Shown here: one piece after another, positions 22,829 through 61,852 of the stretch
How the letters are laid out: each line of letters opens with the position of its first letter
Numbering within the stretch: position 1 is the first letter of the stretch
From: Leptotrichia massiliensis
GTDB lineage: Bacteria > Fusobacteriota > Fusobacteriia > Fusobacteriales > Leptotrichiaceae
Assembly: GCF_900104625.1 (NCBI RefSeq)
Contig: NZ_FNVZ01000005.1
Coordinates: 868,001-932,000, forward strand
Direction: 5' to 3'
Length of the DNA: 64,000 bases
Translations under genes and position numbers: made by a program
The notes under the pieces: generated by a model
Databases searched by the model: none
Seen by the model: only the letters and a program-made list of their open reading frames with translations
What the model was told of the DNA's origin: nothing

Positions 22829-22878
22829 ATTTATAATTTAAATGATACAAATATAATTTTATTTCTAATTTTAAAATG

Positions 22879-22962
22879 TACGAGAACCTATTTAAAATTA
22901 AACTATTAAAAATTATATAAACTCACGGTTTGAGTAAAATAGTCATGGTCTTGAAGTTCAGT
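22879..22962 (+). repeat. dispersed intergenic repeat, copy A
   Basis: It shares the core TTTAAAATTAAACTATTAAA plus ATTATA and a downstream block GGTTTGAGTAAA, TAGTCAT and GAGTTCAGT-like sequence with copies at 56582-56667 (inverted) and 61261-61459. The copies sit only between genes. Confidence 0.75.
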
Positions 22963-23090
22963 TTTAAAGTAGTTTTACTATAATTTTGCGAGAAATTGGA
23001 ATATAATGTAAAAAATAACTGAATTTTGATAAAATATTTTTCACAAAGACTATGAAAAAATGCAAAATTATTATATAATATACATATTGC

Positions 23091-49449: not shown

Positions 49450-49473
49450 AACAAGGGGAATTACCCCCTTGCA
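49450..49473. repeat. GC-rich hairpin, CAAGGGG type
   Basis: CAAGGGG (49452-49458) and CCCCTTG (49465-49471) form a 7-bp stem between the unknown gene and hisC. Related hairpins occur at 48069-48095 and 61354-61373. No good T run follows on either strand. Confidence 0.5.
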
Positions 49474-55994: not shown

Positions 55995-56594
55995 TTATTT
56001 TTCTAAATACTTATAATACCCCTTAAATTCCTCATCAGACTCATTTTCTCCTAGCAAAAACCACTCCAACTCAGCCTTTTCAATATTTTTTTCTTCATCC
56101 AAGACAAGTTTATACCGAAAATCAATATGAATATGCTCCCCTTCACTTTTCACAGGATTTTCAGGAATATCAATCACATTAACATCAATCAATCCAAAAT
56201 TTTGCATATTTTCATCAACTTTTGCAAAAAAACCAGTCTCTTCTACAAATTCACGGATAGCAGTATCTAAAGGCATCTCACCATTTTCTACATGTCCTGC
56301 TGGCAGTAAAATAGTTTTTAAATACGGATGTTTTATAAAATAACATTTCGCATTCTTAAAAACTACAGCACTCGCTGATAAATGAACTTTAGACTTTCTG
56401 TTCGTTAAATCCTTTATTTTCGTTTGTGATAATATTTCTGAAATTCTTTCAATTTTTGTTTTCAATTCAGGCTCGTATTCTGCTAAATTTTGTAAATGTT
56501 TTTTTAAGAAATTTATATTTTCTATTTTCAAAATTTTCTCCTTTTGGATATTTTCTTTAATTTTATAGTAAAACCACTTTAAAACAGAACTCAA
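55995..56594 (-). CDS. Nudix hydrolase
   Basis: The 199-residue protein has an N-terminal helical extension of about 65 residues and a Nudix domain. The Nudix box [23 protein letters not shown] (about 104-126) is complete, including the REFVEETG metal-binding glutamates. Substrate is not evident; nucleoside diphosphate derivatives are usual. It is upstream of the his genes and downstream of a dispersed repeat; it has its own terminator. Confidence 0.88.
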
Positions 56595-56667
56595 AGGCTA
56601 TGACTATTTACTCAAACCCTAAGTTTGTATAATTTTTAATAGTTTAATTTTAAACGGGTTCGAGTAT
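56582..56667 (-). repeat. dispersed intergenic repeat, copy B (inverted)
   Basis: On the minus strand it matches copy A nearly base for base over TTTAAAATTAAACTATTAAA, the GGTTTGAGTAAA block, TAGTCAT and the GAGTTC end. It lies between folP and the Nudix gene. Confidence 0.75.
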
Positions 56668-56671
56668 AAAA

Positions 56672-60760: not shown

Positions 60761-61111
60761 CTAATCTTTTATCTGAATTTCAACACTGTCAAAAATTCCA
60801 TTAATTGGAACTGCTAATTTTCGTATATTTACTTGCACATATTCAATTTTTTCATTCATTTTTTTCATCTCTTCTATAATATCCAAAGCCAATGTTTCCA
60901 GCAAATCTACTCTGCTTGCTTTAACAATTTCCTCTATTTTTCTATAACAATCTCCATAACTCAATGTACTATTTATGTCATCATTTTTAATGATTTCCTT
61001 TGAAAGTGAAATGATTAAATCAATTTCAATATTTTGTCCAATTTTTTTTTCTTCTTCATAAACACCTATATATGAATGAAATTTCATGTTATTAATCTTT
61101 ATTTTATACAA
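60761..61111 (-). CDS. folB: dihydroneopterin aldolase
   Basis: The 116-residue tunnelling-fold enzyme has the start YKIKINNMKFHSYIGVYEEEKKIGQN with the catalytic Glu region, SYGDCYRKIEEIV, and the closing VQVNIRKLAVPINGIFDSVEIQI. It begins the folB-folK pair. AGGTAGATT lies upstream of the start. The upstream region contains repeat elements rather than a riboswitch. Confidence 0.95.
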   Translation of the reverse strand: MYKIKINNMKFHSYIGVYEEEKKIGQNIEIDLIISLSKEIIKNDDINSTLSYGDCYRKIEEIVKASRVDLLETLALDIIEEMKKMNEKIEYVQVNIRKLAVPINGIFDSVEIQIKD

Positions 61112-61192
61112 TTGAATCTACCTCATTTCTATTTAAAGTTTGTGTATATTTTAACATATAAAATCTTAAAAATAAATAGTGTTAATACTAAA

Positions 61193-61252
61193 CTCCGCCT
61201 AAATAAGAAATTTATTACAAACTTATTTGACAGAGTATAAAACCTAGTATTT
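61193..61252. repeat. short relative of the nested element, ends AATACTA/TAGTATT
   Basis: It starts AATACTAAACTCCGCCTAAA, very like the left end of the 61302-61418 insertion (AATACTAAACCCCATTTGAA), and ends in CTAGTATT, giving inverted AATACTA ends. Likely a shorter or decayed member of the same family. Confidence 0.5.
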
Positions 61253-61301
61253 TTAATATATACTCGAATCCATTTAAAATTAAACTATTAAAAATTATAT
61301 C

Positions 61302-61418
61302 AATACTAAACCCCATTTGAAAAAAGAAATGATTTCCTATTTCACTTTCTGACAAGGGGTCTTGACCCCTTGCTAAACGGAATTATAAAAACTACATTGT
61401 TTTAATAGGGAATAGTAT
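61302..61418. mobile_element. MITE-like insertion inside repeat copy C
   Basis: About 117 bases with imperfect terminal inverted repeats: ATACTAAACCCCATT at the left, and ATACTATTCCCTATT as the reverse complement of the right end. It contains the perfect CAAGGGGT/ACCCCTTG hairpin. There is no ORF, so it would need a transposase from elsewhere. A target duplication is not clear. Confidence 0.6.
61354..61373. repeat. perfect GC-rich hairpin inside the insertion
   Basis: CAAGGGGT and ACCCCTTG around a CTTG loop: an 8-bp stem in an otherwise AT-rich stretch. Related hairpins are at 48069-48095 and 49452-49471. Confidence 0.7.
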
Positions 61419-61529
61419 AACTAAGGGTTTGAGTAAATAGTCATAACTTTTGAGTTCAGTAATTTTTGTTTTTTAAATTACAAACAATACAAAATAACAT
61501 GATAAATTTTAATATTTCTAAATTTTTCT

Positions 61530-61565
61530 CAAAAAAAGAAGCAGAATCATAAAAATTCTACTTCC
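61530..61565 (-). terminator. terminator of the lipoprotein gene
   Basis: GAAGTAGAAT and ATTCTGCTTC pair over 10 bp (one G:U), followed by a run of T's on the minus strand. Confidence 0.85.
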
Positions 61566-61598
61566 AAGCATAACAATCTATTTAGATAAACTTACAAA

Positions 61599-61781
61599 TT
61601 AAAAACGATTTCCATACTTATCCTCACAATAGACATTTCCATTGTATTTTTTGTAACATTGTACGCCTCTTTCTTCCCATCTTTTATTTACTCTGTTCCA
61701 ATAACTCGGACTAAACAGTTCACAGCTTGCTACACTTAGTCCCAACAAAATTACAGCCAGAATTCTAAATACATTTTTCAT
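61599..61781 (-). CDS. small lipoprotein, unknown function
   Basis: 60 residues from the ATG that follows AAAGGAGTG by 8 bases; a GTG three codons earlier overlaps that site. A signal sequence (NVFRILAVILLGLSVASC) ends in a lipobox with Cys about residue 20. A short mature part has two further Cys (VQCYKKYNGNVYC) and a basic, aromatic composition. Likely anchored in the envelope. An A15 tract (minus strand) lies upstream in its promoter region. Confidence 0.75.
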   Translation of the reverse strand: MKNVFRILAVILLGLSVASCELFSPSYWNRVNKRWEERGVQCYKKYNGNVYCEDKYGNRF

Positions 61782-61852
61782 AGCGTTCACTCCTTTGTAT
61801 TATTTTATCCTTACTAAATTATATATTTGCTATAATTTTATCATAGTTACTG

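Follow-up and report, generated by a model that had tools for sequence, protein, structure and literature searches.

The repeat nest upstream of folB

The window, a stretch of 64,000 nucleotides, belongs to a Leptotrichia genome (G000) of 2,537,566 bases in five contigs and harbours a dihydroneopterin aldolase-like gene, which from its translation and operon context we take to be folB. In the upstream region of this gene, at 61183-61478, lies a nest of repeats containing no ORF of 60 aa or more. The features of the nest, together with two further repeat copies in the window, are listed below, the types ISa and ISb referring to insertion sequences of sister genomes.

22877..22982, forward strand: copy A, uninterrupted ISb-type MITE
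56564..56668, reverse strand: copy B, ISb-type MITE without interruption (site empty in G008 and G001, with a single TA)
60761..61111, reverse strand: dihydroneopterin aldolase-like gene, presumably folB, with the nest in its upstream region
61183..61185, forward strand: TAA, putative left 3-bp flank of layer 1, presumably the oldest layer and an ISa-type MITE (right duplication invisible, that end being lost)
61186..61258, forward strand: putative left part of layer 1, a long-form ISa-type MITE (alignment to a 118-bp genomic form; family alignment)
61259..61260, forward strand: TA flanking copy C, layer 2 (TA duplication from the empty sites of other copies; right TA lost here)
61261..61300, forward strand: left part of copy C, ISb-type MITE (alignment to outer-repeat copies)
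61301..61303, forward strand: CAA, left target duplication of the inner element
61304..61417, forward strand: inner 114-bp ISa-type MITE, layer 3, ends TACTAAACCCCATT and TACTATTCCCTATT (end-motif counts; matches in genome and genus)
61353-61372: internal palindrome CAAGGGGTCTTGACCCCTTG of the inner element
61418..61420, forward strand: TAA, right target duplication of the inner element
61421..61460, forward strand: right part of copy C, without its last ~20 bases
61461..61478, forward strand: putative resumption of layer 1, 18/18 bases identical to the 118-bp form (alignment against shuffles and window tiles)

The members of the nest are short and AT-rich, 114 bp for the inner and 105-106 bp for the outer repeat. 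A preliminary description of the window had proposed that 117 bases split copy C, and this was confirmed as a 114-bp element plus a 3-bp duplication, CAA on the left and TAA on the right with one mismatch between them. With the insert removed, copy C can be aligned continuously with copy B (85/94 identical) and with copy A (81/98), so that the empty-site comparison within the window put forward earlier holds, and the 3-bp reading alone makes copy C equal in length to the two other copies at the insertion point.

The segment upstream of copy C had been regarded as a shorter relative of the inner element, starting nearly alike and closing in the inverse, at 61193-61252. A related start is indeed present, at position 61186, but the supposed inverse end (CCTAGTATT) lies inside a longer element and is no terminus, and the segment probably represents the left end, now truncated, of a third and longer MITE holding copy C, a proposal based in part on an AT-rich match of 18 bases. 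The left segment aligns to the 118-bp genomic form with a local score of 64, reached by 0/2000 shuffles, and on the far side of copy C positions 61461-61478 prolong the same long-form block with a score reached by 4/2000 shuffles and 2/3198 window tiles. With copy C inserted in a third and older ISa-type MITE the nest would be three layers deep. The right TA of copy C is gone, since the last ~20 bases of this copy are missing.

The outer repeat

A search with copy B as query gave 45 matches in its own genome. The repeat starts with TATACTCRAACC and finishes with TTTTACTATA, and in 23 of the 29 loci examined both ends are present, uninterrupted and 101-107 bp apart; besides A and B the genome has about 20 further full-length copies lacking the inner element. 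The flank search included 17 of 23 prepared loci, these 23 being a subset of the 29. Empty sites in sister genomes keep one TA, with clean cases for copy B (L262, L263), L043 (L260, L265), L054 and L051, while L056 and L049 agree less neatly with TA and L052 and L047 are ambiguous. Copy B is absent from both G008 and G001, each with a single TA, and is thus a clean TA-flanked insertion and no deletion derivative. The outer family duplicates TA, the rule among IS630 elements.

The inner family

The end motif ATACTAWWCCCYATT (at most one mismatch) occurs at 27+28 places in the genome compared with 5+1 for the reversed control, and a 20-base version at 28, 67 and 43 places in three other Leptotrichia genomes (control 0, 0 and 1). 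The 114-bp sequence itself is related at 93% to C4:534720-534837 and more weakly to other places in the genome, and the inner element is matched in 12 of the 13 genus genomes, so that many copies exist of the unit for which the preliminary description had asked a search. Two forms were found in the window's genome, a short form of about 115-124 bp, to which the 114-bp element belongs, and a long form, modular and about 300-440 bp in length, in which exchangeable hairpin cassettes accompany a GC-rich core that is conserved. The cassettes of the long form swap at one position, between GTCGGAGC and GTCGTAGACTAGCC (L072, L073, L076, L078, L083, L099), and an optional second module makes this form a mosaic. 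Searches of viral, phage and plasmid collections gave no match to the long form or its ends. Terminal inverted repeats are present on the MITEs of both families.

The flank search of the inner family included 18 of 26 prepared loci. In L. hongkongensis L072 (319 bp) is missing and one TAA is left in a site otherwise 98% identical to G000, the comparison of L076 with G008 and G002 likewise shows an empty site that leaves TAA, and L071, to which the inner element is most closely related, has TCA on both sides and empty sites of the expected length with one substitution in G003 and G010. Clean empty sites were obtained in 3 of the 8 loci aligned, the other five not being clean. Flanks were further compared in 30 sets, consisting of 27 hand-paired MITEs, some of which (e.g. 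L084, L086, L089, L093) may be wrongly paired and were counted nonetheless, and 3 ISa copies; identical 3-mers flank the element in 16 sets (shuffle mean 10.3, p 0.008), with T at the first left place in 26/30 and A at the third right place in 29/30. The inner family duplicates three bases, TNA. Readings of the duplication as zero bp or as TA are contradicted by the empty-site lengths and by the TCA and TGA cases.

The palindrome AAGGGG(TCTTGA)CCCCTT of the inner MITE (61353-61372) recurs at window position 49453 and in L059, L071, L027, L029, L110, L127 and L129, and is also found within another MITE, whose ends resemble GACCTGTTCGATAA, and by itself close to the ends of genes. A MITE with the ends TAGACCTGTTCGATAA, resembling those of an IS5-type element in G002 and G005, adjoins the nearest relative of the inner element (G000:C4, about 534505-534620, in L071). 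At G001:C1:2287936-2289550 the left end of the long form occurs twice in tandem, in one case with an IS5-type transposase beside or within it.

Insertion sequences with matching ends

When 13 genomes were searched for DDE_3 (PF13358), nine gave matches and the window's own genome gave none, so that the mobiliser proposed here is taken from sister species. There the MITE ends are shared with autonomous insertion sequences, ISa in G005 and G011 and ISb in G001 and G006, so that both repeats of the nest are MITEs, as had been suggested, with inverted ends, copies and matching elements. The transposase with matching ends for which the preliminary description had advised a search is accordingly present in sister genomes, but in the window's genome PF13358 had no match.

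ISa (1111-1113 bp, ends TACTAAACCCCG, transposase inside) occurs at two loci in G011, flanked by TTA/TTA and TAA/TAA, and at one in G005, flanked by TTA/TGA; the right end of the inner element matches it at about 10 of 14 places. Its transposase is read from two frames that overlap and join at a run of A, and among the three copies L243 alone has no further break in these frames. The catalytic half reaches 124.4 bits with the NCBIfam model transpos_IS630 (NF033545, cut-off 100) and 60.8 bits with PF13358, and the N-terminal half 75.6 bits with NF033545, below the cut-off of 100. ISb is an element of ~0.94 kb whose ends TATAGTAAAACCTATTTAAAACTGAACT (TATAGTRAAAC...) match the outer repeat, with a DDE_3 transposase and a TA duplication known from the empty sites of the MITE. 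The spacing from the second D to the E is 31 in ISa (DD31E) and 34 in ISb (approximately DD34E). ISa thus has an IS630-type transposase and a 3-bp TNA duplication, and as this replaces TA it is here filed as an IS630-like variant and not as a plain member.

In the window's genome a 92-bp relic of the ISa start, close to the G005 copy, was found at C3:120502-120593, while no facing pair of inner-type ends enclosing a transposase was seen, and the ORFs of seven loci next to TATAGTCAATC and similar sites included no recognisable transposase. The relic is itself interrupted by a long-form MITE (G000:C3:120502-120936), a second nest of this kind. An element in G006, which we take to be IS1182-like, was considered as a partner of the outer repeat and rejected, as it shares 'TTGAGTTCAG' with the repeat but has different ends (GGGGCTGTCTCA).

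DD31E relatives outside Leptotrichia

When the catalytic half of ISa was compared with plasmid records by tblastn, 324 records matched, all below 60% identity, and six were fetched for reading of the flanks. Three S. meliloti loci (L278-L280) and one from Skermanella carry TAA, TTA, TAA and TGA, respectively, on both sides (in S. meliloti TTA/TTA once and TAA/TAA twice), with ends starting TACC, while for the Acidithiobacillus and Caballeronia loci the element ends could not be fixed. The flanks of L279 joined with one TTA are identical over 360/360 positions in other strains, in all 8 records among the matches listed, and this empty site is found at an identity of at least 99% in 20 of 41 records; for L280 and L278 the best matches, of full length, reach 93.4% and 79.3%. 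The D-E spacing is 31 in S. meliloti, counted by eye from the translation, and 32 in Skermanella (DD32E). As far as the few members examined show, a duplication of 3 bp accompanies the DD31E branch.

Origin and age of the nest

The nest, its two families with their empty-site duplications and, in sister genomes, full-length insertion sequences that carry matching ends and a transposase are all directly observed. Very probably the nest consists of three layers of MITEs that two IS630-type transposases have moved in trans. In a first step an ISa-type MITE would have landed at TAA upstream of folB, in a second an ISb-type MITE (copy C) at TA within it, and in a third the 114-bp ISa-type MITE at TNA within copy C, with later decay of the right end of copy C and of the far end of layer 1. 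ISa and ISb would both be cut-and-paste DDE elements, ISb (DD34E) duplicating TA as IS630 elements do and ISa (DD31E) duplicating TNA, which would imply a stagger of three and not two nucleotides at strand transfer. The movement in trans, the succession of steps and the three-nucleotide stagger are inferred from sequence comparison. Only the TNA duplication is unusual, the elements being otherwise ordinary non-autonomous transposons.

That the nest has only two layers, 61186-61258 being an unrelated remnant and 61461-61478 a chance match, is unlikely; the right match is short and AT-rich and was equalled by a few shuffles, but the left match is strong, no shuffle reaching it, and the right one picks up close to where the left one stops. 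Copy C as the ancestral longer repeat, with A and B as its deletion derivatives, is barely credible: the presence of the insert in three genomes, and nothing else, agrees with it, while the 23 uninterrupted outer loci with both ends, the occurrence of the 114-bp sequence away from the outer repeat (93% in L071, for example) and the insert's own inverted ends and near-perfect 3-bp duplication speak against it, and independent copies and empty sites refute it.

The 3-bp duplication would also suit an IS5/IS1031-like or PIF/Harbinger-like transposase as mover of the inner family, the likeness to the ISa ends then being coincidental, since these groups duplicate TNA/TWA and PF01609 and PF13359 are found in 8 and 6 of the 13 genus genomes. 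This is very unlikely, as ISa itself has such ends together with a TNA duplication, whereas TACTAAACCCC ends were found in 0/16 loci with such a transposase whose surroundings were scanned for inverted repeats, and nearby single inner-type motifs belong, where looked at, to separate MITEs. A spread by recombination and not transposition, of structural repeats resembling terminators, regulatory RNAs or REP sequences, is suggested by the folding of the inner element, which is better than that of shuffles (z -3.1 and -4.9), and by the occurrence of its palindrome outside it, but is extremely improbable in view of the empty sites with exact short duplications, the inverted ends and the matching insertion sequences; moreover, no Rfam match at the gathering threshold was found in the window, and none of six loci scored above a family's gathering score.

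L. hongkongensis JMUB5056 (NZ_AP019846.1) has the region 61100-61800, nest included, at 701/701 identity, and G002 has the same nest at 95.9% identity. In L. sp. oral taxon 879 the whole galU-folB stretch is absent and offers for this reason no clean empty site; a 63-aa lipoprotein-like ORF (61599-61790, reverse strand), located between the nest and galU, is missing there together with the nest. As the nest is common to three genomes, all three insertions would predate the divergence of these genomes, unless the region was exchanged later. The earlier view of an active or recent family finds no support in the nest, given this conservation and the absence of a PF13358 match in its own genome, although one family member elsewhere, L072, does differ between G000 and L. 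hongkongensis. From its position, the nest may influence the expression of folB.

Comparison with known systems

Taken together, it is on balance probable that an IS630-like branch found in Fusobacteria and Alphaproteobacteria, of spacing DD31E or, in Skermanella, DD32E, makes 3-bp TNA instead of TA duplications, and that both kinds seeded MITE families nesting in one another in Leptotrichia. The small repeats of fusobacterial intergenic regions thereby gain an origin, and annotation tools expecting TA around IS630 elements would misplace the ends for the ISa branch. A change of stagger from two to three nucleotides alongside a catalytic spacing of 34 or 31 forms a natural pair in one genus, and ISa and ISb could serve to test what sets the stagger of DDE transposases. 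In the literature outside subscription journals and ISfinder, judged from listings, no such elements were recognised in work naming Leptotrichia, nor was this duplication found in work on IS630 with TNA or 3 bp.

The closest precedent for the nest is found in pneumococcus, with RUP/IS630-Spn1, BOX and SPRITE. RUP is described as a ~107-bp AT-rich MITE with ends like those of IS630-Spn1, and pneumococcal repeats are reported to insert into one another (PMC3049150), which is restated in PMC10969869. The Leptotrichia MITEs are similarly short and AT-rich, with IS630-type ends, and small repeats are nested in one another, but genus and end sequences are different, the inner family duplicates TNA and no matching transposase was found in the window's genome.

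According to PMC2170065, IS630 elements, e.g. ISY100, have TA duplications at their flanks and use TA almost exclusively as the site of insertion. ISa and ISb share with them an HTH and DDE_3 transposase, inverted ends and a putative cut-and-paste mode, ISb also the DD34E spacing and TA, while ISa differs in DD31E, a transposase in two overlapping frames and the 3-bp TNA duplication. A departure from the TA rule is also seen in the IS630-Tc1-mariner relatives Sailor, with mostly TATA, and Fot, with mostly TAA duplications, as given in PMC8533490 and PMC7386202; ISa has a different DDE spacing, Fot is a pogo element of a eukaryotic superfamily, and in the ISa-type elements TTA and TCA occur besides TAA, with TGA in a relative. 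Closest to ISa are the IS630-annotated elements on S. meliloti plasmids (L278-L280), which share DD31E, TNA and an exact empty site, although the catalytic half of their transposase is about 37% identical and their ends (TACC) differ after TAC.
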